The notes beneath the pieces were generated by a model. That model ran no database searches. It was not told where the DNA came from and worked only from the letters and a program-made list of their open reading frames with translations. From NCBI GenBank assembly GCA_946887295.1, contig CAMPKP010000014.1, forward strand, positions 1 through 39,075: DNA of 39,075 bases. Direction: 5' to 3'. This document shows, in pieces, positions 1 through 23,574 of the stretch. The stretch's first letter is position 1, and every line of letters starts with the position of its first letter. Both the position numbers and the translations under genes were made by a program. This stretch comes from an uncultured Gemmatimonadota bacterium (GTDB lineage: Bacteria > Gemmatimonadota > Gemmatimonadetes > Gemmatimonadales > GWC2-71-9).

Positions 1-1361
1 CTGCCCCGCAGCCTCCGCATGGCGCGCTCAAACCTGCTCCGCTCGCGCTCGCCCCAGCGGCGCGCCCTTCGCGCCCTCGCGCCGGCCTCCGGGAGGCCGA
101 GATCGCCCAACCCTCCGGTGCTTCCGCGCCGTGCGACGATGCGAGAGGACGTCGGCGCCCCCAACGACTCGCCCCGCCGGAGAGCCGCCGCCACGTCGCG
201 GTACGCCAGCCGGAACGCAGTCCCCCCCTCGACCCGACGCATCACCTCGTCCGTCGCGAGCGCTCCGCCCGCGAGGGCCGCGGCACAGCGGTCCCGGTCC
301 ACACCGAGTCGCGGCACCGCGGCCGCCAGCGCGGCCAGGATCGCCCCGGTGCGGTCCAGGCCCCGCATCAGCGGCTCCTTCAGCAGCTGAAAATCACGAT
401 GATAGCCGCTCGAAAGCTTCGACTTGATCTGAAGAACGGCAGCGAGATCGCCCTCGAGCGCGGCAGCCCGGCCCCGGGTCAACTCGAAGAGATCGGGGTT
501 CCGCTTGTGGGGCATGATGCTCGAGCCGGTCGCCAGCTCGGCCGGCAGCGTCAGATAGCCGAACTCCTCGGCGCTGTAGAGGATCACGTCCTGCGCCAGC
601 CGGGCCGCCTCGTGCCCCAGCTGGGTGCACCAGAAGAGCACCGCGGCCTCGAGCTTGCCGCGACCGCCCTGCACCGTCGCCACGTTGCGGTCGAGCCCGG
701 CGAAGCCGAGCGACTGCGCCGCGACTTCGCGGCGGAGCGGCAGCGGGACGCCATAGCCCGCGGCGCTTCCGAGCGGCGAGCGATCCACCCGAGTCCACAC
801 CTCCGGCAGCGACTCGATGGTATCGAGCAGCCCCTCGGCGTATGCGCCGGCCCAGAGGCCGACCGACGAGGGCATCGCCCGGCGCTGGTGGGTGTACCCC
901 GGCCAGAGCACGCGCCGGTGCCGTGTGGCGAACGCCAGCAGCGCGCCGGTCAGGTCGAGCGCGGCGCCGTGGAGCCCCAGGAGCCGATCCTTGAGGTAGA
1001 GCCGGAGGTCGCAGGCGACCTGGTCGTTGCGCGACCGGCCGGTGTGCAGCCGCTCGCCGAGTCCCGGCAGCCGGCGGGTGAGCCACTCCTCGACGGCGGT
1101 GTGCACGTCCTCCTGATCCGGCCGCAGCTCCAGCCGCCCGCGCTCGACCGCGACCAATGCCCGGCGCAAGCCCTGGCGCAGCCGCGCGTGCTCGCGAACA
1201 CCGAGGAGTCCCGAGTCGCGAAGGCCATCGATGTGCCCCAGGCTGCCGAGCACGTCCCAGCGCAGCAGGCGAGCGTCCCAGGGGCGGTCGTCGGCCGCGG
1301 TCTGCTCCAGCAGCCCCCGGTCGAGCCCGGTCCCCGATCCCCACAGCGTCCTGGGCGCCAC
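1..1361 (-). CDS. argH: Argininosuccinate lyase, 3' end cut by window edge
   Basis: Cleaves argininosuccinate to arginine and fumarate, the last step of arginine synthesis, in the cytosol. Reading from the GTG at 1361, the protein opens with TLWGSGTGLDRGLLEQ, the counterpart of the KLWGGRF start of ArgH. It carries the HTGRSRNDQV substrate-binding motif around residue 105 and the fumarase/lyase signature GSSIMPHKRNPD around residues 277-288, including the catalytic serine loop. About 453 codons are present, near the family's usual 450-470, so only a short C-terminal tail is missing. The visible tail is unusually rich in Arg and Glu. The GTG lies 5 nt after the argE stop, with GGAG immediately upstream, so translation is probably coupled. 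It is the last visible gene of the arg operon. Longer frames on both strands here do not encode ArgH motifs. Confidence 0.93.
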   Translation of the reverse strand, partial: MAPRTLWGSGTGLDRGLLEQTAADDRPWDARLLRWDVLGSLGHIDGLRDSGLLGVREHARLRQGLRRALVAVERGRLELRPDQEDVHTAVEEWLTRRLPGLGERLHTGRSRNDQVACDLRLYLKDRLLGLHGAALDLTGALLAFATRHRRVLWPGYTHQRRAMPSSVGLWAGAYAEGLLDTIESLPEVWTRVDRSPLGSAAGYGVPLPLRREVAAQSLGFAGLDRNVATVQGGRGKLEAAVLFWCTQLGHEAARLAQDVILYSAEEFGYLTLPAELATGSSIMPHKRNPDLFELTRGRAAALEGDLAAVLQIKSKLSSGYHRDFQLLKEPLMRGLDRTGAILAALAAAVPRLGVDRDRCAAALAGGALATDEVMRRVEGGTAFRLAYRDVAAALRRGESLGAPTSSRIVARRGSTGGLGDLGLPEAGARARRARRWGERERSRFERAMRRLRG

Positions 1362-1366
1362 GGCTC

Positions 1367-2437
1367 CTACCGCCCCGCCAGGTATTCGCGGGCCACGCCG
1401 GCGTAGAAGCCTCGCGCGGCGGTCACCTCCGGAAGGTCCACGTACTCGTCGGGCGTGTGCGACCGGCGGCTGGTGCCGGGCCCGGCCTTGATCGCGTCCA
1501 CGTGGCGGAGGAAGACCCAATCGGAGCAGGTCGGGCTTCCGAACCGCGCCGCCTGCGGGCGGGCGCGCGCCGCCGCCTCGAGCAGGCGGGAGTCCGCCGG
1601 CGTCTCGCAGGGCACCAGGCGGCGAGAGGTGACGACGACCTCGGAATCGAGCCGCTCGCGCAGCAGGGCGGCGATCTCCTCGTGGGTCCAGTCGGGCGTG
1701 CTGCGGACATCGAGGATCGCGGTGGCGACCGGCGGGGTGACGTTCCGGCTCACGCCGGCTTCGAGCATCGTGGGAGTCGCGACCGTGCGGCCGAGCACGG
1801 GATGAGTGCGGTCGCGGAAGAGGTCCTCCAGCCGGAGCAGGTCGCGCGAGAGGACCAGCACGGCATTGACGAAACCGCCGTCCGACGCGGCGTAGCCCGC
1901 GTGGCGCTGGTCGCCGCGGGCCACGAGGTCCACCATCATCAGCCCGCGCTGCGCGGTGGCGATGTCGAGGCTGGTCGGCTCCCCGATCACGGCGGCATCG
2001 ATCGTTCCGGCCCGCTCCACCGCGCGCGGCATCGTGGTGTTCCTGGTCTCCTCCCCGTACCCCAGGATGACGAGCAGCCGGCCGCTCTCGATCTCGTCCG
2101 CCTGCGCGAGGTCGCGCGCTGCAGTGACCATCGCCGCCACCGAGGCCTTTGCGTCGCCCGAGCCGCGGCCGAACAGCCGGTCGCCTTCGATCGATGGGGT
2201 GAACGGGTCGCGGGTCCAGCCGGCGCCCGGCGGCACCACGTCGAGATGGGAGACGAGGGCCAGCGTGGGCCCGGGCCCCGTGCCGCGCACCTCGATCCGT
2301 ACCGAAGTGTCGTCCCGCACCGCGTCGAGGCCCCACCCGCGGGCGGTCTCCTCCACGAAAGCGGCGGCGGCCGCCTCCTCTCCGCTCACGGAGGGGATCG
2401 CGACCAGCCGGCTCAGCAGCTCCAGCTCATCCGGCAA
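1367..2437 (-). CDS. argE: M20 peptidase, N-acyl-ornithine/citrulline deacylase (ArgE-like)
   Basis: A 356-residue M20 metallohydrolase predicted to remove the acyl group from the amino acid carrier. In an operon whose carbamoyltransferase uses acyl-ornithine, the substrate should be N-acylcitrulline rather than N-acylornithine; this is an inference. Visible motifs are SHLDVVPPG (first metal His and Asp, about residue 66), GRGSGDAKA (bridging Asp), GYGEETRN (catalytic and metal Glu pair), IGEPTS, and the late SHTPDEYVDL that supplies the last metal His. The start is TTG at 2437, overlapping the end of argB by 11 nt, with GGGGTGG just upstream; no in-frame ATG fits. Homologs of the LysK type act in lysine synthesis, but argG, argH and a carbamoyltransferase in the same operon favour arginine. 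Confidence 0.88.
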   Translation of the reverse strand: MPDELELLSRLVAIPSVSGEEAAAAAFVEETARGWGLDAVRDDTSVRIEVRGTGPGPTLALVSHLDVVPPGAGWTRDPFTPSIEGDRLFGRGSGDAKASVAAMVTAARDLAQADEIESGRLLVILGYGEETRNTTMPRAVERAGTIDAAVIGEPTSLDIATAQRGLMMVDLVARGDQRHAGYAASDGGFVNAVLVLSRDLLRLEDLFRDRTHPVLGRTVATPTMLEAGVSRNVTPPVATAILDVRSTPDWTHEEIAALLRERLDSEVVVTSRRLVPCETPADSRLLEAAARARPQAARFGSPTCSDWVFLRHVDAIKAGPGTSRRSHTPDEYVDLPEVTAARGFYAGVAREYLAGR

Positions 2438-3362
2438 GATCCACCCCGAGATACGTCGCCTTCTCCTTGCGCCCCACGATCATCGTGCCGCACCCGGCGC
2501 CGGTGAAGACTTCGAGGAGGAGTGCGTCGGGTGTGCGGCCGTCTATGATGTGGGTCCGCTCGACCCCGCCGGTCGCCGCCCGGATGCAGGCCTCGACCTT
2601 GGGACGCATGCCGCCGGTGAGCACGCCGCTGGCCATGAGGCCGGCGAGGTCGTCCGGATCGGCGAAGGTGACGAGGGTGGAGGGGTCGCTCCGGTCGCGA
2701 AGCACGCCCGGCGCGCCGGTGAGGAAGATGAGCTTCTGCGCCCGCATCGCCACGGCGAGCGACTCCGCGACCGTATCCGCGTTGACGTTGAACACCTCGC
2801 CATCCTCTCCGCCGGCGAGGCTCGCGACGACCGGGACGAAGCGCGCCTCGACCAGGGTGGTGAGGACCCGGGGGTCCACGCGGTCCACGTCGCCCACGTG
2901 CCCGTAGTCCACCTTCACGGTCTTCCCGGCATCGTCCACCACCTGCACCGGCGACCGCCGATGCGCGGTGATCAGGTCGGCGTCCACCCCGCTCAATCCG
3001 ACGGCCTGCACCCGGTGCGCGCGGAGCGCCGCGAGCAGGTCCACGTTGAGCTGGCCGGCGTACACCAGCTTCGCCACCTCGAGCGCGGCATCGTCGGTGA
3101 CCCGCCGCCCCGCCACCATCCGCGGCTCGGAGCCGAGCCGGCGGCTCAGCGCCGTGGCCTGCGGTCCGCCGCCGTGCACCACCACGAGCCGGATGCTGAG
3201 CGAGGAGAGGAGCGCGAGCTGCCCGGTGACCTGCTCGAGCACCTCCGGCTCGCCCAGCACCTCGCCGCCGAGCTTGACGACGAAGACCTGGTCGCGATAT
3301 GCGCGGACGTAGCGCAGCGCGCCCTTGAGACCGGCGATGCCCTTGGTGGTGTCGATACTCAC
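2427..3362 (-). CDS. argB: N-acylglutamate kinase
   Basis: Phosphorylates the gamma-carboxylate of N-acetyl- (or N-succinyl-) glutamate, the second step of the pathway. At 311 residues it is slightly longer than the usual 260-300. The amino acid kinase fold is clear: VVKLGGEVLG near residue 28, VVVHGGGPQ near 61 (acyl-glutamate binding), GLSGVDADLITA, a NVNADTVAESLA segment, FLTGAPGVL, and GVLTGGMRPKVEAC near the ATP site. The start is GTG at 3362 with GGGGAG 6 nt upstream. It begins 18 nt after the argF' stop and overlaps argE by 11 nt. Which acyl group is used cannot be read from the sequence; the carbamoyltransferase downstream in the pathway hints at succinyl. Confidence 0.93.
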   Translation of the reverse strand: MSIDTTKGIAGLKGALRYVRAYRDQVFVVKLGGEVLGEPEVLEQVTGQLALLSSLSIRLVVVHGGGPQATALSRRLGSEPRMVAGRRVTDDAALEVAKLVYAGQLNVDLLAALRAHRVQAVGLSGVDADLITAHRRSPVQVVDDAGKTVKVDYGHVGDVDRVDPRVLTTLVEARFVPVVASLAGGEDGEVFNVNADTVAESLAVAMRAQKLIFLTGAPGVLRDRSDPSTLVTFADPDDLAGLMASGVLTGGMRPKVEACIRAATGGVERTHIIDGRTPDALLLEVFTGAGCGTMIVGRKEKATYLGVDLAG

Positions 3363-3380: not shown

Positions 3381-4421
3381 TCACGGTTGCCTGCCCGACA
3401 CGTCCCGGCTGCCGCCGAGCAGCTCCAGCAGGAGCGCCCGCTGGGCGTGCAGTCGGTTCTCCGCCTGGTCCACCACGACCGAGTGGGGTCCGTCGAGCAC
3501 GGCGTCGTCGATCTCGACGTTGCGGCGGACCGGGAGGCAGTGCATCACGATCCCCCGCCCGCCGCGGGTGGACTTGAGCCGGGCCGGCGTGAGCCGCCAG
3601 TCCCGGAACGCCGCGCGCTGGTCGGCCTCGGCCGCCGGGTCGCCGTAGAGCTTCACCGAGCCCCACGACTTCACGTACACGGCGTCCGCACCCACCGTGG
3701 CCTCGTCGGGATCGTCGATGATATGGACGAACTCGCCGCCGGACTGCTGGGCGAGCCGCCGGATCAGCGCGGTGTCCTCGGGGTCGAGCTCGTACCCGGG
3801 CGGCCGCGCGATGACGATCTCCATGCCGAGCCGCGCCGCGGCCAGCGCGGCGCTCACCGGGACCGCCGTCGGGAGCGCCTTGGGGTGCCAGGCCCAGGTG
3901 AGGACGAAGCGCTTGCCCGACGTCTCGCCCAGCTTCTCCCGAAGCGTCATCGCGTCGGCCAGCGCCTGGCAGGGGTGCCGCCGCGCGGACTCGAGGTTGA
4001 CGACCGGCTTCTCGCAGTGCCGGGCGAAGCTCCTGAGGATCGCGTCCTGTCTGGCGACCGACCAGTCGCGCCCGCGGGGGAAGGATCGCACGCCCACGGC
4101 GTCGGCATAGCGGCCCAGCACCCGGGCCGCGTCCACGATGTGCTCGACGCTCTCGCCGTCCATGACCGCGCCCGGCTCGGTCTCGAGCGGCCAGCTCCCG
4201 CGGCCGGGCTCGAGCACCACCGCATGCCCGCCGTGGAGGAACATCGCGGTCTCGAAGCTGGTGCGGGTTCGGAGGCTGGGGTCCATGAGCACCATCGCCA
4301 GCACCTTCCGCTCCAGACCCCCGGTGACCGACCCCCGCTTCACTCGCGCGGCCAGCTCGAGCAGCGCATCCACCTCGGCGACGGACCAGTCCTCCAGCGA
4401 CAGGAAGTCCCGCTTGCTCAC
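3381..4421 (-). CDS. argF': N-acylornithine carbamoyltransferase, succinyl-type by residue 92
   Basis: Transfers the carbamoyl group from carbamoyl phosphate to an N-acyl-ornithine. The 346-residue protein has the carbamoyl-phosphate motif SLRTRTSF (about 49-56), GHAVVL, HPCQALAD (about 147), TWAWHP in place of the acyl-ornithine enzymes' TWxxHP, and HCLPVRRN. These features match N-acetylornithine (AOTCase, Xanthomonas) and N-succinylornithine (SOTCase, Bacteroides fragilis) transcarbamylases rather than ordinary ornithine transcarbamylase. The residue reported to set acyl specificity is Glu92 in the Xanthomonas enzyme and Pro90 in the Bacteroides one. Here the aligned stretch is MDGESVEH and that position is Val92. 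E92V was among the mutations reported to convert AOTCase to SOTCase, so the succinyl substrate is favoured. GTG start at 4421 overlaps the argD stop as GTGA, with AAGGAGGTG 5 nt upstream. Confidence 0.9.
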   Translation of the reverse strand: MSKRDFLSLEDWSVAEVDALLELAARVKRGSVTGGLERKVLAMVLMDPSLRTRTSFETAMFLHGGHAVVLEPGRGSWPLETEPGAVMDGESVEHIVDAARVLGRYADAVGVRSFPRGRDWSVARQDAILRSFARHCEKPVVNLESARRHPCQALADAMTLREKLGETSGKRFVLTWAWHPKALPTAVPVSAALAAARLGMEIVIARPPGYELDPEDTALIRRLAQQSGGEFVHIIDDPDEATVGADAVYVKSWGSVKLYGDPAAEADQRAAFRDWRLTPARLKSTRGGRGIVMHCLPVRRNVEIDDAVLDGPHSVVVDQAENRLHAQRALLLELLGGSRDVSGRQP

Positions 4422-5566
4422 GCGAGCACCTCCTTGAGCGCGGCCAGCAGCAGGTCGGCCTCATCGGCGGAGAAGGAGAGCGGCGGCAGCAGCCGGAGCA
4501 CGCGCGGGTCCGACGCCGTCCCGGTGATGACCCGCTTCCCGAAGAGCGCGCGCTGCACCTCGGCCGCGGGCCGGTCGAGGTGCAGGCCCAGCAGCAGCCC
4601 GCGCCCGCTGACGCGCCGGACGCCGAGCGCGCGCGCACCGCGCGCCAGCCGGGCCCCCACCCGGACCGCGTTCTCGATGAGGCCGTCGCGCTCGATCACG
4701 TCGATGGTGGCGAGCGCCGCCGCGCAGGGCACCGGGCCGCCCCCGAAGGTGCTGCCGAGATCGCCCGTCGCGATGGAGGCGGTCACCGCCGGCGTCGCGA
4801 TCACGGCGCCGATCGGCAGCCCCGAAGCGAGGCCCTTCGCGAAGGTCAGCACGTCGGGGACGACGCCGACCGCCTCGGCGGTGCTGAACGCGCCGCAGCG
4901 ACCCACGCCGCACTGCACCTCGTCGAAGATGAGGGCCGCGCCATGCGCGTCACAGCACCGCCGGGCGGCGCGGAGGAAGTCGGTGCCGAGGTCGCGGGCG
5001 CCGGAGAGGCCCTGCACCGGCTCGACGATGACGGCCGCGACCCGGTGGTCCACCGCCGCCTCGAGCGCGGCCACGTCGTCGGCAGGCACCTTCCGCGAGA
5101 GCGGGATACCGCTGCGGGACGCCGCCTCCTCGTATCGTGTACCGTCGGTGCAGGCGAGCGTCGCCGCGGTGCGTCCGTGCCAGCCGCCGAGAATCGAGAC
5201 CACCTGGCTTCTGCCGGTCCACTTCCGGGCGAGGTGCAGCGCGTTCTCGTTGGCCTCCGCGCCGGAGTTGCAGAGGAACACGCGGCTCAGGGGCTCGGGA
5301 CAGAGCGCCACCAGCCGCTCCGCCAGACGCTCGCGCAGCGGATGGGGGACCGCGGTCGAGTAGAAGAGGAGCTCCTCGGCCTGGGCGGCGATGGCCCGCA
5401 CGACATCGGGGTGCGAGTGGCCGGTCGCCGCCACCGCGTGCCCGCCGTAGGCGTCGAGCCAGTCGTTGCCGTCCTCGTCCACCAGCCAGGAGCCGCGGCC
5501 CCGGACCGGGCGGATGGGAAACTGGGCATAGACGGGCAGCAGCGCGTCGGACTTCGTCGTCAGCAC
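4418..5566 (-). CDS. argD: N-acylornithine aminotransferase
   Basis: A PLP-dependent class III aminotransferase that converts N-acylglutamate semialdehyde to N-acylornithine with glutamate as donor. The 382-residue protein has GGHAVAATGHSHP near residue 40, CNSGAEANENALHLAR (PLP phosphate pocket), GGWHGRT, the PLP Asp in IFDEVQCGVGR, and the Schiff-base Lys244 in LTFAKGLASG. Length is typical. The GTG at 5566 is chosen because GGAGG lies 9 nt upstream and the stop of argC (TGA 5562-5560) overlaps it by 7 nt. The open frame continues far upstream to 6166, but that part is only the antisense-like shadow of argC. It also overlaps argF' by 4 nt, so the three genes are tightly coupled. Confidence 0.93.
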   Translation of the reverse strand: MLTTKSDALLPVYAQFPIRPVRGRGSWLVDEDGNDWLDAYGGHAVAATGHSHPDVVRAIAAQAEELLFYSTAVPHPLRERLAERLVALCPEPLSRVFLCNSGAEANENALHLARKWTGRSQVVSILGGWHGRTAATLACTDGTRYEEAASRSGIPLSRKVPADDVAALEAAVDHRVAAVIVEPVQGLSGARDLGTDFLRAARRCCDAHGAALIFDEVQCGVGRCGAFSTAEAVGVVPDVLTFAKGLASGLPIGAVIATPAVTASIATGDLGSTFGGGPVPCAAALATIDVIERDGLIENAVRVGARLARGARALGVRRVSGRGLLLGLHLDRPAAEVQRALFGKRVITGTASDPRVLRLLPPLSFSADEADLLLAALKEVLA

Positions 5567-6609
5567 GGAAAGATTCCTCCCCCCTTGAGGCCCGCCGTCT
5601 CCTCGATGCCGAGCGCCAGGTTCATAGCCTGGATCGCCTGTCCGCCGGCGCCCTTCACCAGATTGTCGATCGCCACGGTGACCTGCACCTCGGAGCCGTC
5701 GTCGCTCTCCGCCGCGTGGATGAGGGCATGGTTGGTGCCCACGGCGTGCGTGAGCTCCGGGGGAGCGTCGAGCACCCGGACGAACGGCCGCCCGGCGTAC
5801 GCCTCCCGGAACCATTGCGCCGCCGCCGTCCCCGGGTCGCCCGCGCTGATGGCGCGCTCGCGGGGCAGGTACGCGTGAAGCGTGAGGTAGATGCCGCGCA
5901 CGAAGGGGCCGGAGTGAGTCATCAGGCGGGCGGTGGCGTCGGGCCGACCGATCCACTCGCGCCATGCCTGGAGCACCTCGGCCTCGTGCCGGTGGCCCAG
6001 CACCGAGTAGGCGAACAGATTGTGCGCCCGCATCGGGTGGTGGGTCGTGGGCTTCGGCTGCACGCCGGCGCCGCTCGAGCCCGTCACCGCGAAGATCGAA
6101 GGCGACAGGTCGAGCCCCGCGCGCGCCAGCGGGTAGAGGGCGAGCTCGGCGGCCGTGGCGAAGCACCCGGGCGCCGCGAGCGCGCCGGCGCCACGGAGTG
6201 CCGGGCCGAGCACGTCCGCCAGGGCGTAGCAGAAGCGGGGAAGGAGCTCGGGCGCCTGGTGGGGTCCGTAGTACCGCTCGTAGAGCGCCCGGTCGCGCAC
6301 CCGGAAGTCGGCGGCGAGGTCCACGACGAGTCCCGGCTTCGCGGCGAACACCTCGCCGGCCACCCGCGAGGACTCACCATGCTCCAGGCAGAGAAAGACG
6401 ACGTCGCGTCCCCGGGCGACCTCGGCGGCGCCCGCGCTGGAGAACCGGGCGTCCGACACCGTCGCCAAGGCAGGATGAGCGTCGGCCAGCGGCGCGCCGC
6501 CCCGGCTCCGGCTGGTGGCGACGACGTCGCGCACCTCGGGGTGCTGGTACAGCAGCCGCAACAGCTCTCCGCCGGCGTACCCGGCGGAGCCGACCACGGC
6601 GACGTTCAC
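5560..6609 (-). CDS. argC: N-acyl-gamma-glutamyl-phosphate reductase
   Basis: NADPH-dependent reduction of N-acylglutamyl phosphate to the semialdehyde. It begins VNVAVVGSAGYAGGELLRLL, a Rossmann nucleotide-binding GxxGYxG motif that marks the true N-terminus. The catalytic cysteine is C149 in APGCFATAAELAL, and the downstream HHPMRAHNLFAYSVLGHRHEAE matches the conserved ArgC segment with its His. At 349 residues it has the usual length. The GTG start at 6609 overlaps the stop of the upstream P-loop gene as GTGA. An upstream start at 6651 is in frame but would add 14 residues before the Rossmann strand, so it was rejected. Confidence 0.93.
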   Translation of the reverse strand: MNVAVVGSAGYAGGELLRLLYQHPEVRDVVATSRSRGGAPLADAHPALATVSDARFSSAGAAEVARGRDVVFLCLEHGESSRVAGEVFAAKPGLVVDLAADFRVRDRALYERYYGPHQAPELLPRFCYALADVLGPALRGAGALAAPGCFATAAELALYPLARAGLDLSPSIFAVTGSSGAGVQPKPTTHHPMRAHNLFAYSVLGHRHEAEVLQAWREWIGRPDATARLMTHSGPFVRGIYLTLHAYLPRERAISAGDPGTAAAQWFREAYAGRPFVRVLDAPPELTHAVGTNHALIHAAESDDGSEVQVTVAIDNLVKGAGGQAIQAMNLALGIEETAGLKGGGIFPC

Positions 6610-7700
6610 GAGGCCGCGGCGACGGCGAGGCTCTCCGAGCGCTCCGCCCACTCCGCCATGGCGGCGCGCACCGTCGCCACCAGGCCCGCCGCATCCCGCC
6701 GGGCGTTGTGCGCCGGCAGGCCGAGGCCGCCGGTGATGTAGACCTGGCCCACCTCGTTGTCGGTGGCCGGTCCGGTGACCGCGGTGATGGGCAGCGCGAA
6801 CTCGCGCTGCATCAGCTCGGCCGCGCCCCAGCAGGCCACCGGATCGGGCGCCGCCATCACGTAGGCGGCGCCGACCGACATCAGCTCGGCGTCGCGGAGG
6901 ATGTCCTGCACGCCGTACTCGCCGAGGATCCCGTCGCCGAGCTCGGCGACGATGACGTCCGGCCTGGCGGCGGCGAGGCGATTGAAGATGCCCTTCGCGG
7001 TCGTGACGGTGACGCCGGCGTGGGTGCTGGCGATCCCCACGTCGTTGAAGGTGAGCGCGGCGACGGCGCCGGCGTCGAGCATCGACAGCGCGTCACGCAT
7101 CAGGGACACGCCGGTGAGCTTCGCCGCGGCCACCTTCAGGCCGGCGCGAGCGAGCCCGCGCACCAGCTCGGTGGCGGCGACCGTCTTGCCCGCGTTCATG
7201 CAGGTGCCGGCGATGTAGACCACGGGGACGCGGCTCTCGAGCAGATCCGAAGGAGGCACGGCGCGGTCGCGGATGTGCGCGGGGCGGCCGACCCGGTCGC
7301 CCAGCTCCGGAAAGGCGAGGATCGCGCCGAGCACCTCGGCGCGGAACGGCGGGCCGATGTCGGGGTTGACCGAGGTGCAGCGCCCGAGGATCCCGCCGAG
7401 GTTGAGCACCTCGATCGAATCGCCGACGGCGAGGTGCGGCGGCACCACGCCGGCGTAGCCCCGCAGGGCCCGGCGGGTGCCGAGCACGCCCGCGAGCACG
7501 TCACCCGCGCGCAGCGAGAGCATCCGGCCGGTGACGTCCTCCACCGTGTTGTAGGTGGACTTGTCCTCCAGGATCCGGACCGCCAGGACGTACCCCTCCG
7601 CCGACATGATCTCGTCCCCCACGATCACCTCGGGCGAGAGCGCGGCGTTGCGGGTGGCGCTGGCCATCCGGTCGAGCCGGACGCGGGTCGTGACTACCAT
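6606..7700 (-). CDS. P-loop protein of unknown function embedded in the arg operon
   Basis: I do not recognise an experimentally defined family. The 364-residue protein has two parts. The N-terminal ~150 residues (IVGDEIMSAEGYVLAVRILE, then GDVLAGVLGTRRALRGYAG) look like a small beta domain. The C-terminal part is a P-loop domain with GTCMNAGKT at about residues 164-172, followed by a KLTG strand, a conserved-looking Asp (FNDVG) and VAELGDGILGEYGVQDIL. The layout resembles SIMIBI-class P-loop proteins such as dethiobiotin synthetase and, more loosely, DUF1611. A DUF1611 protein, DgcN, has been reported as a D-glutamate N-acetyltransferase. Start ATG at 7700 has GAGGAG 6 nt upstream. It sits 30 nt after argG and overlaps argC by 4 nt, so it is co-expressed with arginine synthesis. 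A role in the missing acylation step is possible but unproven. Confidence 0.72.
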   Translation of the reverse strand: MVVTTRVRLDRMASATRNAALSPEVIVGDEIMSAEGYVLAVRILEDKSTYNTVEDVTGRMLSLRAGDVLAGVLGTRRALRGYAGVVPPHLAVGDSIEVLNLGGILGRCTSVNPDIGPPFRAEVLGAILAFPELGDRVGRPAHIRDRAVPPSDLLESRVPVVYIAGTCMNAGKTVAATELVRGLARAGLKVAAAKLTGVSLMRDALSMLDAGAVAALTFNDVGIASTHAGVTVTTAKGIFNRLAAARPDVIVAELGDGILGEYGVQDILRDAELMSVGAAYVMAAPDPVACWGAAELMQREFALPITAVTGPATDNEVGQVYITGGLGLPAHNARRDAAGLVATVRAAMAEWAERSESLAVAAAS

Positions 7701-7730: not shown

Positions 7731-8921
7731 TCAATGATCTCCGCCCGCACGGGCCGCGAGCAGCGAAGGTACGGCCGAGACCCGGGCGAAGGCCCGCGCC
7801 TCGTCGCCGGTCCAGAGGCGGTTCTCTTCCCCGTAGGTCGCGATCGACGCGTCCATCATGGAGTGGGGGCTCCGGGTGCCGACGACCTGAAAGCGGCCGG
7901 ACGCGAGACGGACCCGGGTCTCGCCGGTGACGCGAGCCTGAGAGCTGGTGATCAGCGCCTCGATGTCGCGCAGCGCCGGATCGAAATAGTGGCCCTCGTG
8001 CAGCCGGTCGCCGTAGAAACGGCCGAGCTGGTCCTTCCAGAAGGTCTGCCACTTGGTGAGCACCAGCTTTTCCAGCTCGCGGTGCGCGCCGATGAGGACC
8101 AGCGCGGCGCCGGCCTCGAATCCGATCCGCCCCTTGATGCCGAGTGCGGTCTCACCGACGTGGATGCTGCGGCCGAGGCCGTAGCTCTCCGCCAGCTCGC
8201 CCAGCCGGGCGACCAGCGTCGGTCCGCCCAGCGGCACGCCGTCGAGCGACACCGGCAGGCCGCGCTCCCAGCCGAGCACGATCTCCGCGGGCGCCGGAGC
8301 ATCTGCGGGGGGATCGATCAGCTCCGCCGGCGGGCCGGCCCAGGTATCGTGGGTCCAGCCACCGCCCCAGGTGGTGCCCCAGAGACCGCGGTTGATGCTG
8401 TAGCTGCCGGCGCGCGAGGGCACCGGCAGCCCGCGCTCCTCGAGATAGGCGATGGCCTGCTCGCGCCTGATCCCGGCGTCGCGGATGGGCGTCACGATCT
8501 CGAGCTCAGGCGCCAGCACGCGGAGCGCGACGTCGAACCGGACCTGGTCGTTGCCGGCCCCGGTGGAGCCGTGCGCCACCGCTGCCGCCCCGATGCCGCG
8601 GGCCACCTCCACCACCGCGAGCACCTGCTGGGTCCGCTCGGCCGCGACGCTCAGCGGGTAGACCTCGCCTCTGAGGACGTTGCCCTGGATCAGGTAGCGC
8701 ACGAACCGCTCGTAGACGCGCTCCCGTGCGTCCACCTCGTGATGCTCCAGGGCGCCCACCGCTTCGGCCTGTCGCCGGATGGCGGCCCGATCCGCCGGGG
8801 TGGCGCCGCCGGTGTCCACGTAGACCGTGTGGACCCTCCACCCGTCGGCGGCGAGGCGGGGCACGCAATAGGAGGTGTCGAGGCCGCCGGAGAAAGCGAG
8901 GGCCACCATTCGGGTCTGCAT
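7731..8921 (-). CDS. argG: Argininosuccinate synthase, Bacteroidota-like type
   Basis: Joins citrulline and aspartate with ATP to argininosuccinate. The N-terminal MVALAFSGGLDTSYC is the ATP pyrophosphatase P-loop of the family. HGSTGAGNDQVRFD (aspartate/citrulline binding) and SINRGLWGTTWGGG follow. The latter segment and NVLRGEVYPLSVAAERTQQ resemble Bacteroidota ArgG proteins as I remember them. At 396 residues the length is normal. Two start codons are close, ATG 8921 (MQTRMVALAF) and ATG 8909 (MVALAF). Neither has a clear Shine-Dalgarno sequence, and a leaderless transcript is possible. It is the first gene of the operon. The open frame extends upstream to 9044, across an operator-like repeat and without homology, so that extension was rejected. 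Confidence 0.94.
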   Translation of the reverse strand: MQTRMVALAFSGGLDTSYCVPRLAADGWRVHTVYVDTGGATPADRAAIRRQAEAVGALEHHEVDARERVYERFVRYLIQGNVLRGEVYPLSVAAERTQQVLAVVEVARGIGAAAVAHGSTGAGNDQVRFDVALRVLAPELEIVTPIRDAGIRREQAIAYLEERGLPVPSRAGSYSINRGLWGTTWGGGWTHDTWAGPPAELIDPPADAPAPAEIVLGWERGLPVSLDGVPLGGPTLVARLGELAESYGLGRSIHVGETALGIKGRIGFEAGAALVLIGAHRELEKLVLTKWQTFWKDQLGRFYGDRLHEGHYFDPALRDIEALITSSQARVTGETRVRLASGRFQVVGTRSPHSMMDASIATYGEENRLWTGDEARAFARVSAVPSLLAARAGGDH

Positions 8922-9081: not shown

Positions 9082-9408
9082 TCAGTGCAGCTCGCTGGTG
9101 TCGGCCGTGACCCCGGTGTCGAGGTCGTGGACGTAGAGCGCGGCGCCTCGACCGTCGGCTGACTCGCTGACTACCTCCTGCAGCAGCCGGAGTGAGTCCG
9201 TGAGGCTGGGGGCGAAGGCGTACTCGAGCGAGAGCGGCGCCGGTTCGCCCTCCCGGGCCTCCGGGAGGTATGCGGCAAGAAAGCGGTCGATGATGACGGG
9301 GTGAATCTCGCGGTTGATCGGATGGGGAAGGCCGTGGCGGCGCTCGATCTCGGTGAGGAGACGCTCTGCGAGCAGCAGGCGCTCCTGCTCAAGGGCGACA
9401 GAAAGCAT
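9082..9408 (-). CDS. Unknown small protein (108 aa)
   Basis: I do not recognise this protein. It is predicted soluble, with no signal peptide or membrane segment, and acidic overall. The N-terminal half looks helical (ALEQERLLLAERLLTEIERRHG), followed by a segment with several prolines and a C-terminal YVHDLDTGVTADTSELH. The ATG at 9408 has GAGGGG 7 nt upstream and is preferred to the GTG at 9411. It stands between the esterase gene and the arg operon on the same strand, with 105 nt before it and a strong hairpin after it, so it may be its own transcription unit or the tail of the alpha-2-macroglobulin unit. Good ribosome binding site and placement support it as real. Confidence 0.65.
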   Translation of the reverse strand: MLSVALEQERLLLAERLLTEIERRHGLPHPINREIHPVIIDRFLAAYLPEAREGEPAPLSLEYAFAPSLTDSLRLLQEVVSESADGRGAALYVHDLDTGVTADTSELH

Positions 9409-9513
9409 CACATATCCCCTCGTCTGCGCGTACCGGCCCTCTCTGGCGCGGCCGGCGTGTGATTGGCGTGGGCGGCACCAGCGCCCGAAAGATCCGATGA
9501 AGCGATCGTGGTC

Positions 9514-11210: not shown

Positions 11211-13490
11211 TCACTCCACGCGAACGGTCACCTCGGCCGAGTCGCCGGACATGGTGACGGCGCGGAAGCGGTGGAGCCCCGGCCGAAGGCTCCAGCGCCC
11301 CGGAGGGTGGGGACGATCGTCCACCGTCCAGCGGATTCGGTCGTCGCCACCGCGGGCGCCGACCGCCCTGAGCGCGACCGTCGCGTAGCGGGGTTCGACG
11401 CCCGGCGAGAGACGGTATACGTCGCCCTCGCGCGGAGAGAGGATCCGGAAGCCGGGGAATGGTCCGCGCACGGACTCCCCGGCTGGGGCGGCGCGCGTCG
11501 GCGACGGCATCTCCGACCGCTCCGCCCACTCCGCGTACTCGGCCGGCAGCTCCACACCGCCCCGGCCGTCGTGCCAGCCACAGGTGTCCGACGGCACTCG
11601 ATTCGGCGCGAACCATTCCCGCGTGAGCGGACAGGCCGGACCCGGTCGCAGGCCGGACAGGCGGCACACGGTCGCCGACACGGCTCCCGACGCCCCGGGA
11701 TCGGGCAGCGAGCCCGCCGGGTAGCGACGAGCGGTCGCCAGCACCGTGCGATGCAGCAGGGGCCCGGCGCCGCTCACCCCGCTCACCCCGTCCATCGGAC
11801 GGCCGCTGAAGTTGCCGACCCATACCGCGACGGTGAACCCACCGGTGGCGCCGACCGCCCAGTTGTCCGTGAAATGCCGGCTGGTCCCGGTCTTGGCTGC
11901 CACGGGGAAGGGGAAGTCGAGCGGGCTCTCGACCCCGAACCCCGGGATCCGGGCTACGGGATCGGAGAGAATGTCGAGCACCAGGGCGGCGGACCGCTCG
12001 GTCGCGAAGCGGCGACCCGGCTCGGGCGCCCGGTCCGGCGCGGTGGCGCGCCAGGTATACGGCCGCCAGACGCCCGAATTCACCAGGCCCCGAAAGCCAT
12101 TGGCCAGCTCGAGCAGCGTGATGTCGCCGTTGCCGAGCGCCAGCCCCAGTCCGTAGTGATCCGCGCTGCGGCCGAGCGACCCGAAGCCGGCACCGCGAAG
12201 CACATGCAGCAGGCTGCCGACTCCCAGATGGCTGGCCAGCTCCACCGCCGGAACGTTGTACGAGCTGGCGAGCGCCTCGCGGGCGCGGACGGGCCCATGG
12301 AAGCGTCGGTCGTAGTTCCTCGGTCGATACGGGCCGGTCCCGGTCTGGTACACCCTGGCGATGTCGGGAAGGATGGAGGCGGGAGTCCACCCGCGGTCGA
12401 ACGCGAGCGCGTAGAGGAACGGCTTGAGGGCCGAGCCGGGCTGGCGCGGACTGAGCACCATGTCCACCTGGCCGGCGGTGTCGGCCCAGAAATCGGGCGA
12501 GCCGACCCAGGCGAGGATCTCACCGGTATGGTTGTCGAGCACTACGGCGGCCGCGTGGCGCGCACCCCGGTCGGCCAGCGTCTCCACTGCGTGACCCACC
12601 TCGTGCTCCAGCTCGTCCTGGAGAGCGAGATCAAGCGAGGTGCGCCAGGCCCCGTTGGCCGGCGCGCCGGCGCGCTCGGCCCAGCTCAGCACCCGGGTGG
12701 TGAAATGCGGCGCGCGGAACGGCCCGGCGCGCCGCCGCTCGAGCACCGGCTCCGAGCGCGCGCGATCGGCAGCCGGCGGCGGTACGAATCCCAGGTGGAC
12801 CAGCCGGTCGAGCGCCTGGTCGCGCCGCTGCCGTGCGCGGGAGGGTGAGACCAGGGGATTGTCGATCGAGGGTGCGCGTGCCAGCCCGGCGAGCAGCGCC
12901 GCCTGGCCGAGACTCAGGTTGTCGGCGCCGGAACCGAAGTAGAGTGCCGCGGCGGCCTCCACGCCTACGGCACCCTGCCCCAGCGGGACCCGGTTCAGGT
13001 ACTGCTCGAGGATCGCCTGCTTTCCGAGATGCCGCTCCAGCCGCAGCGCCCAGAGCGCCTGTCCCGCCTTGCCGATCCAGGTCCGAGGAGACGGCCGCAG
13101 CATCCGCGCGACCTGCATCGTGATCGTCGAGCCGCCCGACACGACGCGTCCCTTCCGCAGATTTGCCCAGGCCGCGCGCACCACTGCGCGGGGGTCCACG
13201 CCGGGATGCCGGTAGAACCGGCCGTCCTCGGCGGCGACGAACGCCCCGATCAGATCGGCATCCATGTCGTCCAGATCGAGCCAGCCGGCTCGGCTGCCGT
13301 CCGGCGCGCGCGTGGTGCGCAGCTCCCGGCCGAACCGGTCTTCGAGTGTCACCGCCCGGGATCCGACATCGAGCATCCCCGCCGGAAGCGGGCGCCACAG
13401 CCACACCGCCAGAGATGCCAGGCCCGCGGCGAGGGCCGCGCCCGCTCCGACGAGGATCCGTCTCACTCCGCGGCGCGTCACCTCGATCAC
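11211..13490 (-). CDS. pbpC: Penicillin-binding protein 1C
   Basis: Bifunctional peptidoglycan synthase of class A, inner-membrane anchored. One membrane helix lies at residues 12-32. The glycosyltransferase domain has Glu88 in AAEDGRFYRHPGVD, then SGGSTITMQVARML and ILEQYLNRVPLG. The transpeptidase domain has Ser353 in PGSALKP, SYN in ASSYNVPAVE, and KTGTS. The C-terminal ~90 residues form the PBP1C-specific domain (RILSPREGDVYRLSPG). At 759 residues it fits the family. The GTG at 13490 overlaps the alpha-2-macroglobulin stop as GTGA. Pairing with alpha-2-macroglobulin is the known context of PbpC and suggests joint envelope defence or repair. Confidence 0.95.
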   Translation of the reverse strand: MIEVTRRGVRRILVGAGAALAAGLASLAVWLWRPLPAGMLDVGSRAVTLEDRFGRELRTTRAPDGSRAGWLDLDDMDADLIGAFVAAEDGRFYRHPGVDPRAVVRAAWANLRKGRVVSGGSTITMQVARMLRPSPRTWIGKAGQALWALRLERHLGKQAILEQYLNRVPLGQGAVGVEAAAALYFGSGADNLSLGQAALLAGLARAPSIDNPLVSPSRARQRRDQALDRLVHLGFVPPPAADRARSEPVLERRRAGPFRAPHFTTRVLSWAERAGAPANGAWRTSLDLALQDELEHEVGHAVETLADRGARHAAAVVLDNHTGEILAWVGSPDFWADTAGQVDMVLSPRQPGSALKPFLYALAFDRGWTPASILPDIARVYQTGTGPYRPRNYDRRFHGPVRAREALASSYNVPAVELASHLGVGSLLHVLRGAGFGSLGRSADHYGLGLALGNGDITLLELANGFRGLVNSGVWRPYTWRATAPDRAPEPGRRFATERSAALVLDILSDPVARIPGFGVESPLDFPFPVAAKTGTSRHFTDNWAVGATGGFTVAVWVGNFSGRPMDGVSGVSGAGPLLHRTVLATARRYPAGSLPDPGASGAVSATVCRLSGLRPGPACPLTREWFAPNRVPSDTCGWHDGRGGVELPAEYAEWAERSEMPSPTRAAPAGESVRGPFPGFRILSPREGDVYRLSPGVEPRYATVALRAVGARGGDDRIRWTVDDRPHPPGRWSLRPGLHRFRAVTMSGDSAEVTVRVE

Positions 13491-16400
13491 GGTCCGCCTG
13501 CCCGGACGGTGAACACGCCGCCGTCGCTCTCGCCGAACACCGCGGGGTTGTACATCTCCTCGGCGTGCGCCGGCGGACGAACGAAGGTGCCGGGCGTGGT
13601 CGCGCGCGCGAGATATGTCGCCGTGTAACTCCCGGGCCAGAGCCTCGTGGCCGCGAAGACCACCCGGTCGTCCCGCATCTCCCGGTGATCGAACGGCGAC
13701 CACCAGCCGGCGTCCCAGCTGCCGTACACCCAGAGAGGCCCCGACTGGTCGCCCGGCTCGCCCGTCGGCTCCACCGACGCGGAGTCGGCGGCGCCCGGGC
13801 CGGCGACGCCGCCGACGGTCCGGAGGCTCAGGTCCACCGCTTCCAGTCCCGCGGGAAGCGCGTCGTCCAGGATCACGAAATGGCGCTCGGACGGAACCGT
13901 GAGCCGCAGCCTGACGCGGACCAGCTCGCCTTCAGCGACTTCGGTGAGCGGCCGGCCGCTCTCGAAGCTCTCATACCACCGCTCGACCTGGATCCCGCTC
14001 TCCTCCGGCCGGACCGGCGCACGCTCGGGAGCGACGGTCGCGGTGAGGAAGTAGAAGACCGGCGCCGCGCTCCGGGCCGTGTCGCCGGCGGTGAGGGTGA
14101 GTCGAAGCTTTCGACCGCCCGGCCCGCCGCCGAGCAGCCGCTCGAGCGAGACGCTCTTCTCGCTTGCGGGGCCCAGCGAGGCGATCTCGAAAACCGCGCG
14201 CCTGCCCGATGCCACCCGGATCCCGCGGGCCGCGCCGGCTTTCTGCTGTCGCTGGAATTGGGCGAGCGCGGACACCGCTGTGCCCAGATCCTGGGTGTTC
14301 CAGTACCAGTCGGCTCCCCTGCCCTGCTGGACCAGCGTCTCGACCATCGGCCCGACCAGCGGATGCGACGGATTCACCGCGAGCGTGGCGCCGAGCAGCC
14401 AGGCCATGGGCCGCACCGGCGAGAAGAAGTAGAAGTCGCGCCGGGTCGCCTTCGGCAGCGTGGCGGCGCGCCCTTCGACCTTCACGGCTCGCCAGGCCGG
14501 CTCCAGCAGTCGCAGCGCAGCGCTCCGATCTCCGCCGCGCGACAGGACGAGCGCCAGCCGCACGCGATCCTCCCACGCGAGCTGGGCCTGGAGGCGCAGC
14601 AGCTCGTTCTCCGCCGGGCGGTCGCGAAGCCCCGCCCGGCTCAGGTAGTCCACCGCCATCACCCGGTCGCTGAGCCGCACGTGGCTGCTGTCGTACCACG
14701 CGGCAACCGGCGCGGTGATGGGACCGCGCTCCACCAGCGATCGCTGGAGATAGCCGCCGAGCCGGGCGAGCACGGAGTCGTCCACGGCGAAGCCCGCGCC
14801 CTTCGCCTCGAGCAGCACCGCGCCCGCATAGGCGCTCAGCCACGGCGTGGTCCAGTCGCCGGCGCTCCAGAAGCCGATGCCGCCGTCGGGGCGCTGGCGG
14901 CGCGCGAGCGTCGCAATCACCCGCTCGAGATCGCGCCGGGCCTGCCACGCGACCGCGGAGTCAGCGCCGAGCTCCGGCCCGGCCCGGTAGAGCGCGAGCA
15001 ACGGCTCGGCCGCGCTGGTGATCTGCTCGGTGCACCAGTAGGGGTAGATGCGGAGCCGCTCGGCCGCCCCCCGGATCATGGCCAGCGGCGAGGTGCCCAG
15101 GCTGAGCCGGAGCGTCGAGCGTGCGGGATCCACGCCGTCAGGCAGGACCAGCTCGGCGGTGGCGGTGTCGTGAAGCACGCCGGCCACGGTGAGGGACCGC
15201 GGGTGGTGCGAAGGCCGCACCGGCAGCGTGAGCGCCACGGCGTCGGCGTCGCGGCCGGACCTGGCGCTGAATCGGAAGGCCGCCTGCGAAAGGCTGTCGC
15301 CCGCACCCGCCAGGAAATCGAAGCGCACCTCGCGGCCTCGGCCCTGCTCCAGCGCGACCTTCCGGGTGCGACGTCCCTCCAGCCTGGCTCCGCTCGCCCG
15401 CGCCTCGACGGTCGCTTCGGCCTTCCCCCCGTCACGGCGGTTGACGACGACTCCGGCCGCGAATCGGTCTCCGTCGCGCAGGAACCGCGGGAGCGCCGGG
15501 CGAGCCACGAGCGGGCGCGTCACGAGGAGGGACGACTGCCCGCTGCCGTAGCGATCGCCGGCGGTCACGGCGACGGCCATGACTCGGAAAGTCGTCAGGT
15601 TGTCCGGCAGCCGCGCCGAGGCGACGCCGGTGCCGCGCGCGTTGGTGACGAGCGAGCCGAGGAAGAACGCCGTCGTCTGAAAGCGGCTCCGGAGTATGTC
15701 GGCCGCGTCCGTGCCGCCACCGCCGCCGGGCGCGCGCTTCCCCTTCTCGCCCTCGGGAACCTGCGGGGTCACCGTGGTGAGCGTGCTGGCGAGGCGCATC
15801 CCGAGGCCCCGGGGCCGATAGAGCAGGTCCAGCGGATCGGGAGTCGCGTACCCGGTGAGGGAGAGCACCCCTTCGTCCACGGCCCAGAGCGCGACTTCGC
15901 TGCGCTGGCCGGCCCCCGCCTGGTCGCGGACCGCGATCGCGATGCGCGCGGTGTCGCCCGGCCGGTACTCGGCCGCGAGCGGCGCCACCCGGACGGCGAG
16001 GCGCTTTCGCTCGGGGGTCACCCGGAGCTCGGCGTAGCCCACCCGGACGGTCGGCCTCCCGGGATCGTCGAGCGGGCCGGGAGGCGCACTCCGGCCCCGT
16101 GCCACCACGATCGACACGAACACGTTCGGCGCCATGGCCTCGGTGATCGGCAGCGAGAGCGTCGTAGTCCCGCTCGCGATTCGCAGCCGGCGCTGCTCGA
16201 TCAGTCCCTCGCGCTCCACCGTGATCCAGGCCTCCGCGCCCGTGAACGGCGAGGCGAACAGGATGGTGGCCGTGTCGCCCACAGCGTAGCGGGTGCGATC
16301 GGGCACCACGTCCATCTTGAACTGGCTCTCGTCGTTCCACGGCACCCAGTCGCTTCCGACCGCCCACCGGTAGACACTGGTGGTCACCGGGCGTCCGGCG

Positions 16401-19252: not shown

Positions 19253-19368
19253 CCAACGAAGATAGTGTAGATATTTCCGCCGGCTTTTCCTTATATTGTG
19301 GCTCGCGTGCCAGGTTTGTTCCATTCTGCAAAGATGAGCAGCGCCGAATGTCCCACAGAGGAGGCATG
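19253..19368. promoter_or_regulatory. AT-rich divergent promoter region
   Basis: The 116 nt between the divergent alpha-2-macroglobulin and ompA-like genes are far more AT-rich than their surroundings, with TTATATTG at 19291-19298 and ATATTT at 19271-19276. Promoters for both genes must lie here. I cannot pair convincing -35 and -10 boxes for either direction: TATATT (19292-19297) is the best -10 for the plus strand and TACACT the best for the minus strand. The ompA ribosome site AGAGGAGG is at 19357-19364. Confidence 0.45.
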
Positions 19369-20739
19369 ATGCGCAGGTTCGTTCTCGCCCTGGCGGTGGC
19401 CGGCTTGGCTGCCGCACCCGAAGCTCAGGCTCAACGTGCAGGCACCTTCGAGGTGGGACTCTTCCCCACGATCGCCTATTTCGACAAGTCCCTGCACCTG
19501 GATCAGGCCAAGGCCGGTCCGGGGGCGAGAATCGGCTACTTCCTCACGGATCGCCTCGCCATCGAGGCCGAGGGGTCCTGGGTACCGACCAACGGACAGA
19601 ACCAGATCGACGTGAAGTACATGCCGTTGCACGCGCGGCTGGTGCTCAACTTCCCGGCCAGCGAGCACGTCGGCGTGCTCATCGGCGGCGGCTACGCCCA
19701 CAGCCGGATCCGCGAGGGACTGCGCTTCTCCGACCACGGCGTCACCGGCAACGCGGGCGTACGGCTCGGTCTGGGCGACGTGACCTCCATCCGTATCGAC
19801 ACCTACGTGGACTACATCCCGTCGCCGGACAACGGAGTGGGTGACAACTGGAACTGGGGTATTCAGCCCGGGCTCAGCTTCATGCTCGGCGGGCGCTCGG
19901 CCGGCCCCCGCGACCGCGACAGCGACGGCGTGCCGGACGACGTGGACCAGTGCAGGAAGACTCCGGCGGGCGACCGGGTGGACGCGAAGGGCTGCACCGT
20001 GCAGGACGCGGACGGCGACGGCGTGTTCGACGACGCGGACGCCTGTGCCGATACGCCCGCGGGCGACAGGGTGGACGAAAAGGGCTGCTCCGTGCCCAAG
20101 GACGCCGATGGTGACGGCGTGGTCGACGGCTCGGACGCCTGCGCCGACACGCCGAAGGGCGACAAGGTGGACGAGAAGGGCTGCTCACTGCCGAAGGATG
20201 CCGACGGCGACGGGGTCAACGACGATGTCGATGCCTGCGCCGACACCCCGGCGGGCGAGCAGGTCGACGCCAAGGGCTGCCCCCTGCCCAAGGACGGCGA
20301 CGGTGACGGCGTGAACGACCAGGCCGACCGCTGCCCCAGCACCCCGTCGGGCGTCGAGGTCGACGCCGAAGGGTGCCAGGTGCTCTTCCAGCCGACCAAG
20401 AAGACCCTGATTCTGGAGGGTGTGAACTTCGAGACCGGCAAGGCCACGCTGACGCCGGAGTCCGAGGCGATCCTCAACGGCGTCGCCGAGTCGCTGGTCG
20501 CCAACGACTCGATCCGGGTGCAGGTCACGGGTCACACAGACAACACCGGCAGCCTTGCGGTCAACCGGCGGTTGTCGCGAGCCCGTGCCGATGCGGTCAG
20601 ATCGTACCTCATCTCACGCGGTGTGGCCGAGGATCGCCTCACGGCCCGGGGATTCGGACCGGATCAGCCGGTCGCATCGAACAAGACCGCCGAAGGCCGG
20701 GCGCAGAACCGGCGCGTGGAGCTGATGAGACTGAACTGA
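19369..20739 (+). CDS. OmpA-family outer membrane protein with TSP3 calcium repeats
   Basis: A 456-residue envelope protein. A signal peptide ends near AQAQR. Residues ~25-175 form an eight-strand-type beta-barrel (alternating stretches such as RIGYFLTDRLAIEAEGSW, HARLVLNF). Residues 182-336 hold five thrombospondin type-3 repeats of about 32 residues, each DxDxDGxxDxxDxC...TPxGxxVDxxGC. The C-terminal OmpA peptidoglycan-binding domain has VTGHTDNTGS and LSRARADAVRSYLISRGV, including the Asp and Arg used for diaminopimelate binding. It links outer membrane to cell wall; the repeats probably bind Ca2+. ATG 19369 is 4 nt after AGAGGAGG, and ATG 19366 just before is too close. It is monocistronic, ending in a long hairpin. 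Confidence 0.92.
   Translation: MRRFVLALAVAGLAAAPEAQAQRAGTFEVGLFPTIAYFDKSLHLDQAKAGPGARIGYFLTDRLAIEAEGSWVPTNGQNQIDVKYMPLHARLVLNFPASEHVGVLIGGGYAHSRIREGLRFSDHGVTGNAGVRLGLGDVTSIRIDTYVDYIPSPDNGVGDNWNWGIQPGLSFMLGGRSAGPRDRDSDGVPDDVDQCRKTPAGDRVDAKGCTVQDADGDGVFDDADACADTPAGDRVDEKGCSVPKDADGDGVVDGSDACADTPKGDKVDEKGCSLPKDADGDGVNDDVDACADTPAGEQVDAKGCPLPKDGDGDGVNDQADRCPSTPSGVEVDAEGCQVLFQPTKKTLILEGVNFETGKATLTPESEAILNGVAESLVANDSIRVQVTGHTDNTGSLAVNRRLSRARADAVRSYLISRGVAEDRLTARGFGPDQPVASNKTAEGRAQNRRVELMRLN
19912..20376 (+). repeat. Five TSP3 repeats encoded in tandem (about 96 nt each)
   Basis: Within the OmpA-like gene, five units of 28-32 codons repeat the DADGDGVxDDxDACADTPxGDxVDxKGC pattern. Units 2 to 4 are the most alike. 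Each carries the Asp ladder and the Cys pair of calcium-binding TSP3 modules. High DNA similarity between units makes the copy number prone to change by slippage or recombination. Confidence 0.9.
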
Positions 20740-20756: not shown

Positions 20757-20814
20757 CGATAAAGCGCAAAAGGTGAAAAGGGTCGGCTTCCTTTTCACCT
20801 TTTGCGCTTCATCG
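20757..20814. terminator. Bidirectional terminator hairpin between ompA-like and AI-2E genes
   Basis: Arms 20762-20780 and 20791-20809 are a perfect 19-bp inverted repeat (core GCGCAAAAGGTGAAAAG), extended by a further 4 bp (CGAT/ATCG) after one mismatch. The loop is 10 nt. The A-rich and T-rich arm ends give T runs on both strands. It lies 17 nt after the OmpA-family stop and 23 nt after the permease stop, which converge on it. Confidence 0.85.
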
Positions 20815-20837
20815 TTCACGCTCTCACGTTCCCCGTA

Positions 20838-21908: not shown

Positions 21909-22029
21909 CCGAAAAGAGTATGCCGCAAAGGCTTCCGCCGCCAGCGGCCGTCGGAGGTACGCTCTTGCCCCCGCCGCATCCGGCCGCGAGATTGGCAATC
22001 TCCCCCTTCGCCCTGGCAGGCCGACCGGT

Positions 22030-23549
<1,520 letters not shown>

Positions 23550-23574
<25 letters not shown>

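Follow-up and report, generated by a model that had tools for sequence, protein, structure and literature searches.

The window analysed here, a 39,075-nucleotide stretch from an uncultured Gemmatimonadota bacterium, displayed 122 open reading frames (ORFs) of at least 100 aa, most of which overlapped real genes on the wrong strand. Its minus strand harbored an arginine operon in the order argG-X-argC-argD-argF'-argB-argE-argH (Table 1), in which X is an ATG-initiated frame of 364 codons encoding the motif GTCMNAGKT. The tight coupling announced in the original prediction was confirmed by the ORF itself, by the HMM matches of its neighbours and by the gene junctions. The GTG start of argC overlapped the stop of X (GTGA, 6609-6606), stop/start overlaps were also encountered at argC/argD and argD/argF', and 30 bp separated argG from X, whose ATG was preceded at six bp by GAGGAG. 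The N-acylated route to arginine comprises eight steps and the cluster eight genes; N-acylation of glutamate was the sole step left without a gene, and X the sole gene left without a step. As first reported, GNAT and ArgJ domains were both absent: a Pfam scan of 34 window ORFs, a set that did not include ORF 13487-19417, detected neither.

Two further frames were recorded in the window. A small ORF of 109 aa without Pfam match was located upstream of argG (9082-9411, minus strand), and an open frame of 1806 aa with PAS, GAF, HisKA and HATPase domains according to Pfam (20802-26222, plus strand) corresponded to a large multi-sensor histidine kinase.

Table 1. Features of the arginine operon and of protein X in window coordinates, with the positions of divergent X2 homologues in their own loci
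Feature	Position	Strand	Basis
argG, argininosuccinate synthase	7731..8921	-	TIGR00032, 271.3 bits (cut-off 268.2); start taken as ATG 8921
X, candidate N-acyl(succinyl)glutamate synthase, 364 aa	6606..7700	-	ORF; argG/argC context; sub-threshold PF07755; AF2 model
X N-terminal domain, mainly beta, about residues 1-150	7251..7700	-	AF2 model
X C-terminal P-loop domain, about residues 156-364	6609..7235	-	Predicted fold
Walker A GTCMNAGKT, X residues 165-173	7182..7208	-	Sequence motif
argC, N-acyl-gamma-glutamyl-phosphate reductase	5560..6609	-	TIGR01850, 305.6 bits (cut-off 233.6); GTG start
argD, N-acylornithine aminotransferase, class-III aminotransferase	4418..5569	-	PF00202, 305.5 bits
argF', transcarbamylase with succinylornithine signature V/P/E	3381..4421	-	PF02729, PF00185; alignment to AOTCase chain; published residue rule
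argB, N-acylglutamate kinase	2427..3362	-	PF00696 (AA_kinase), 170.7 bits
argE, M20 deacylase, candidate N-succinylcitrulline desuccinylase	1367..2437	-	PF01546, PF07687
argH, argininosuccinate lyase, continues past window base 1	1..1361	-	PF00206; open frame
X2 loci	L184:7591-8610, L187:8069-9091, L190:7765-8787, L186:4513-5538		

Protein X reached no Pfam or NCBIfam cut-off, in agreement with the earlier view that it belongs to no recognisable arginine family. Its best match was PF07755 (20.2 bits for a cut-off of 25). This cut-off was passed by two Myxococcota homologues (P0131 and P0133), and 31 of the 39 members of the X alignment A2 matched the family at E 0.1 or better. Matches were found in X neither to PF17396 (DUF1611_N, up to E 1) nor to PF01960 (ArgJ), a GNAT domain (Pfam, NCBIfam) or a DNA-binding family (Pfam), and the BioD model TIGR00347 yielded 16.2 bits for a cut-off of 83.3. 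The 39 aligned members likewise lacked GNAT and DNA-binding matches, and PF17396 was absent from the seven families found for them. Conservation was high, with 80 invariant columns across these 39 sequences at identities down to 46 %, which suggests an enzyme. Invariant polar residues of the N-terminal domain included K47, Y50, N51, E54, R59, R76, N100, C108, S110 and N112. The motif GTCMNAGKT was encountered in 77 of the 78 X proteins read from 80 loci, two of which yielded no protein; the remaining protein displayed GTCMSAGKT.

In the AF2 model (pLDDT 93.5), residues 1-152 were mainly beta and a clear structural match to them was not found. The predicted fold of the C-terminal half gave matches led by DUF1611 chains, with 2g0t, 2obn and 7xrj, the latter titled N-acetyltransferase DgcN, within the top 12; DgcN ranked twelfth. 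CTP synthase, ApbC and BioD folds scored about as well as DgcN, and HypB was, like BioD, a close fold. DgcN reportedly displays D-glutamate N-acetyltransferase activity. A structural match to acyltransferase-type P-loop proteins does exist, and the DgcN-like P-loop supposed initially was retained for the C-terminal half; the profile-profile comparison with DUF1611/DgcN proposed alongside it gave an E-value of 5e-4 at a probability of 31 %. The likeness did not extend to the whole protein. X is not a full member of the DUF1611/DgcN family, because it has a different N-terminal domain and, in the case of the window protein, a score under the Pfam cut-off: DgcN and DUF1611 proteins combine PF17396 with PF07755, whereas the N-terminus of X is mainly beta in the model and does not match PF17396. 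X also keeps the canonical Thr after the Lys of Walker A, whereas 12 local DUF1611 proteins displayed G[TS]DxxxGK with R, M or K as the next residue. Unlike DgcN/DUF1611, X lies in an arginine gene context. Compared with BioD and the amidoligase domain of CTP synthase, it possesses an extra N-terminal beta domain and occupies a different operon.

A profile of close X homologues (A1) recovered 183 relatives from public genomes, and the set was narrowed to the best 80; loci were selected by X sequence alone. These best 80 spanned about eight phylum-level groups. According to record titles, they belonged to Gemmatimonadota, Acidobacteriota (Geothrix, Holophaga and others), Myxococcota (Corallococcus), Elusimicrobiota, Planctomycetota, Armatimonadota, Eisenbacteria, proteobacterial and deltaproteobacterial MAGs, and one Woesearchaeota. 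On the same strand, argG was located at most 400 bp upstream of X in 69 of the 78 loci with more than 400 bp of upstream sequence (exceptions L040, L042, L043, L051-L054, L059 and L066), and argC at most 400 bp downstream in 69 of the 73 with more than 400 bp of downstream sequence (exceptions L037, L041, L053 and L059). Most exceptions retained the other neighbour of X or had argG some kb away; no other arg gene was seen with X in L043, and only argG, at 2 to 4 kb from X, in L053 and L059. X was encoded with argB, argC and argD across phyla. Nine more divergent loci (L145-L153) displayed X-argC-argD-argB clusters without recognised argF'; X leads argC-argD-argB even there and therefore follows the N-acyl branch. 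Two records titled Klebsiella pneumoniae (L048 and L051) contained an X arg cluster closest to those of proteobacterial/deltaproteobacterial MAGs and are probably misnamed MAGs.

The presence of other first enzymes was assessed in the genomes of relatives rather than in that of the window, using samples composed mostly of MAGs for which 90 % completeness was requested, the value per genome not being displayed. Among 150 Gemmatimonadota genomes, 21 contained X, 63 contained ArgJ and none contained both; the corresponding numbers among 197 Acidobacteriota were 50, 73 and none. ArgJ was thus found in 0 of 21 X genomes against 63 of 129 X-less ones in the first sample and in 0 of 50 against 73 of 147 in the second (Fisher p 4e-6 and 1e-12, respectively, both ignoring relatedness), that is, in none of 71 X genomes over both samples; nor was it found in 49 X genomes. 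The Gemmatimonadota survey put forward in the original prediction lent it support as regards ArgJ. The exclusion may follow clades, and about half of the X-less genomes also lacked ArgJ (66 of 129 Gemmatimonadota and 74 of 147 Acidobacteriota); its absence is therefore not specific to X. Classical ArgA (TIGR01890) exceeded the cut-off in none of the 49 X genomes, with a model that sees the classical type only and passed in one of 14 controls. Sub-threshold matches to it were encountered in all 49; the best corresponded to the kinase part, and among the weak ones were several generic GNATs. Holophagaceae outside one streamlined genus are reported without N-acetylglutamate synthase, while that genus is credited with a complete arginine pathway, which implies that a synthase of some kind is annotated in it (PMC11561045). 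Loci of Geothrix, a member of Holophagaceae, carry X.

The nature of the acyl group was approached through ArgF'. According to a review (PMC4581275), N-acetylornithine transcarbamylases display E92, N185 and K302 (X. campestris AOTCase numbering), and N-succinylornithine transcarbamylases A/S/P/V/Q, P and V/I/E at the same three sites. By alignment, the window ArgF' displayed V, P and E at residues 92, 184 and 303 (equivalent to 92/185/302 of X. campestris AOTCase), the combination of an N-succinylornithine transcarbamylase; V likewise occupies the first site in its best PDB match, AOTCase chain 3l06. The full SOTCase signature was present in 58 of 60 ArgF' from the 80 X loci, the other two being T/P/E and T/P/K. 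In Acidobacteriota, SOTCase-like ArgF', as delimited by a self-chosen E limit of 1e-70, was found in 42 of the 50 genomes containing X and in 8 of the 147 lacking it. In Gemmatimonadota, 15 of the 16 genomes with ArgF' (E 1e-60) contained X and the sixteenth was cut at a contig end. By search alone, no SOTCase-like ArgF' was found in six of 21 Gemmatimonadota and eight of 50 Acidobacteriota X genomes, among them G136 and G281, where X lies at a contig edge and the gene could have fallen beyond the contig. As a contrast, genome G241 of the Acidobacteriota sample lacked X and encoded an ArgF' bearing E/N/K, the residues of the acetyl type, beside an ArgB fused to an N-acetyltransferase NAT domain (L136, 6068-7384; PF04768, E 1e-37) in the Xanthomonas-type NAGS-kinase layout. 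Since the ArgF' residues beside X are of the succinyl type, X is predicted to make N-succinylglutamate; judged by these residues, the acyl group is probably succinyl, which sharpens the acylation first proposed.

Six Acidobacteriota genomes without X also displayed ArgF', of the succinyl type in G307 (P/P/E) and of a similar T/P/[IV] type in G315, G323, G346, G354 and G377. Their clusters (L138-L143) consisted of an ArgR-like gene followed by (argG-)argC-argD-argF'-argB; ArgJ was absent from the genomes and a recognised GNAT from the clusters. Another N-acylglutamate synthase may operate in these six.

The supposition that X fills the gap at glutamate acylation gained support from the argG-X-argC context, the ArgJ exclusion in the two phylum samples, the lack of classical ArgA over its cut-off in 49 genomes and the DUF1611/DgcN fold matches of the C-terminal half; its catalysis is what we infer. 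We regard it as rather likely that X acts as a non-orthologous N-acylglutamate synthase, with N-succinylglutamate as the most probable product, and so performs the committed step that opens arginine synthesis; this role would apply to Gemmatimonadota, Holophagae, Myxococcota, Elusimicrobiota and others. X would supply N-succinyl-L-glutamate to ArgB-ArgC-ArgD, the resulting N-succinylornithine would be carbamoylated by ArgF', and the succinyl group would be taken off by ArgE. The active site probably lies between the conserved N-terminal beta domain, which would face glutamate, and the P-loop domain; the latter would hold either ATP or, as has been supposed for the DgcN type, the ADP moiety of acyl-CoA. 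The pathway position proposed for X is that of ArgA2 (BT3761/Cabys_1732), an N-succinyl/N-acetylglutamate synthase found in Bacteroidota and Caldithrix, which is arg-operon-coded like X but has a GNAT fold, to which X shows no match; ArgJ, an ornithine acetyltransferase, can also perform this step, and X lacks its family PF01960.

A variant of this chemistry, to which we give limited credence, is that X acts as an ATP-dependent N-succinylglutamate synthetase instead of an acyl-CoA transferase. The P-loop would then phosphorylate the carboxylate of free succinate, as BioD and CTP synthase do with a substrate oxygen, and the acyl phosphate would be handed to the amino group of glutamate. The intact GKT of X, with its Mg-binding Thr, is compatible with this reading and contrasts with the 12 DUF1611 proteins, in which R, M or K comes after GK; if the reading is true, arginine synthesis would begin with a new chemistry.

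Other explanations dispense with X as the synthase. N-acylglutamate could be made by an unlinked GNAT, X performing another pathway task such as metabolite repair or assembly. Each of the ten X genomes searched did contain unlinked GNAT genes (PF00583), between 3 and 24 per genome, and studies on Bacteroidota assign the step to the GNAT ArgA2/BT3761 (PMC7311316, PMC9026213). The ArgA2 gene belongs to arg operons and, in Bacteroidota, has a succinyl-type carbamoyltransferase gene as its neighbour (PMC7311316, PMC9026213, PMC5317091). However, genome G047 (0.9 Mb), whose X cluster L077 holds all eight genes, contained just three PF00583 matches (a 164-aa protein, a protein that looks RimI-like by eye and a 211-aa protein), none of them a convincing synthase; the 211-aa protein had clear relatives in four of 49 X genomes, G047 included, and in 11 of 49 at E 1e-3. 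A home-made profile of weak sensitivity (control L136 reached only E 0.011) was applied to 100 arg clusters and detected no GNAT in the 91 that contained X, and this explanation leaves the ArgJ exclusion unaccounted for. Neither ArgJ nor a classical ArgA over its cut-off emerged in the X genomes searched; a synthase of the short, unlinked GNAT type is a possibility that we consider unlikely.

X could also regulate the operon in response to ATP or arginine, given its P-loop and its position, and control by protein-protein contact would require no DNA-binding domain. This option, mentioned in the original prediction, lost ground and appears very unlikely: genes that look ArgR-like by eye adjoin X in four operons (L145, L154, L155 and L066), X matches no DNA-binding family, the invariance described above suggests an enzyme, and a regulator does not predict the ArgJ exclusion. 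Hardly credible, finally, is a service in another activation step, such as providing ArgF' with carbamoyl phosphate or handling this substrate for it. BioD-like folds do handle carbamates, and BioD and HypB are close folds to X, but X adjoins argC in the nine clusters devoid of recognised argF' and is present in the 14 genomes, some with contig-edge loci, where SOTCase-like ArgF' was not found.

Assignment of X as an acylglutamate synthase would close an arginine-synthesis gap in several large, mostly uncultured groups with incomplete pathway annotation, as published for Holophagaceae (PMC11561045), and genome-based auxotrophy calls in these groups would need revising. A P-loop enzyme would join GNAT and ArgJ as routes to N-acylglutamate, the succinylated pathway would reach well beyond Bacteroidota, and DUF1611-like proteins would gain a biosynthetic role. 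A search of the open-access literature revealed no paper assigning a function to X, which probably constitutes a new N-succinylglutamate synthase family of the P-loop glutamate N-acyltransferase kind.

More distant homologues, about 32 % identical to X and designated X2, were found in X-less and in some X genomes. They co-occurred with ArgJ in five of nine Gemmatimonadota and three of nine Acidobacteriota X2 genomes, and with X in three of the latter nine; X2 is therefore not the arginine enzyme. Fourteen X2 loci were fetched and neighbours were read in six. An M20 deacylase gene (Pfam) directly preceded X2 in three of these (L184, L187 and L190), an M20-like match lay near X2 in L186, and none was seen in L188 and L193. 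In L190, X2 was followed by GNAT-like and enolase-superfamily (MR_MLE) genes. Such gene sets presumably resemble N-succinylamino-acid racemase clusters, which convert D- to L-amino acids. The X2 cluster, P-loop protein included, may possibly serve racemisation or salvage of N-acyl-amino acids and, if this likeness is right, the wider X/X2 family would act on N-acylated amino acids.
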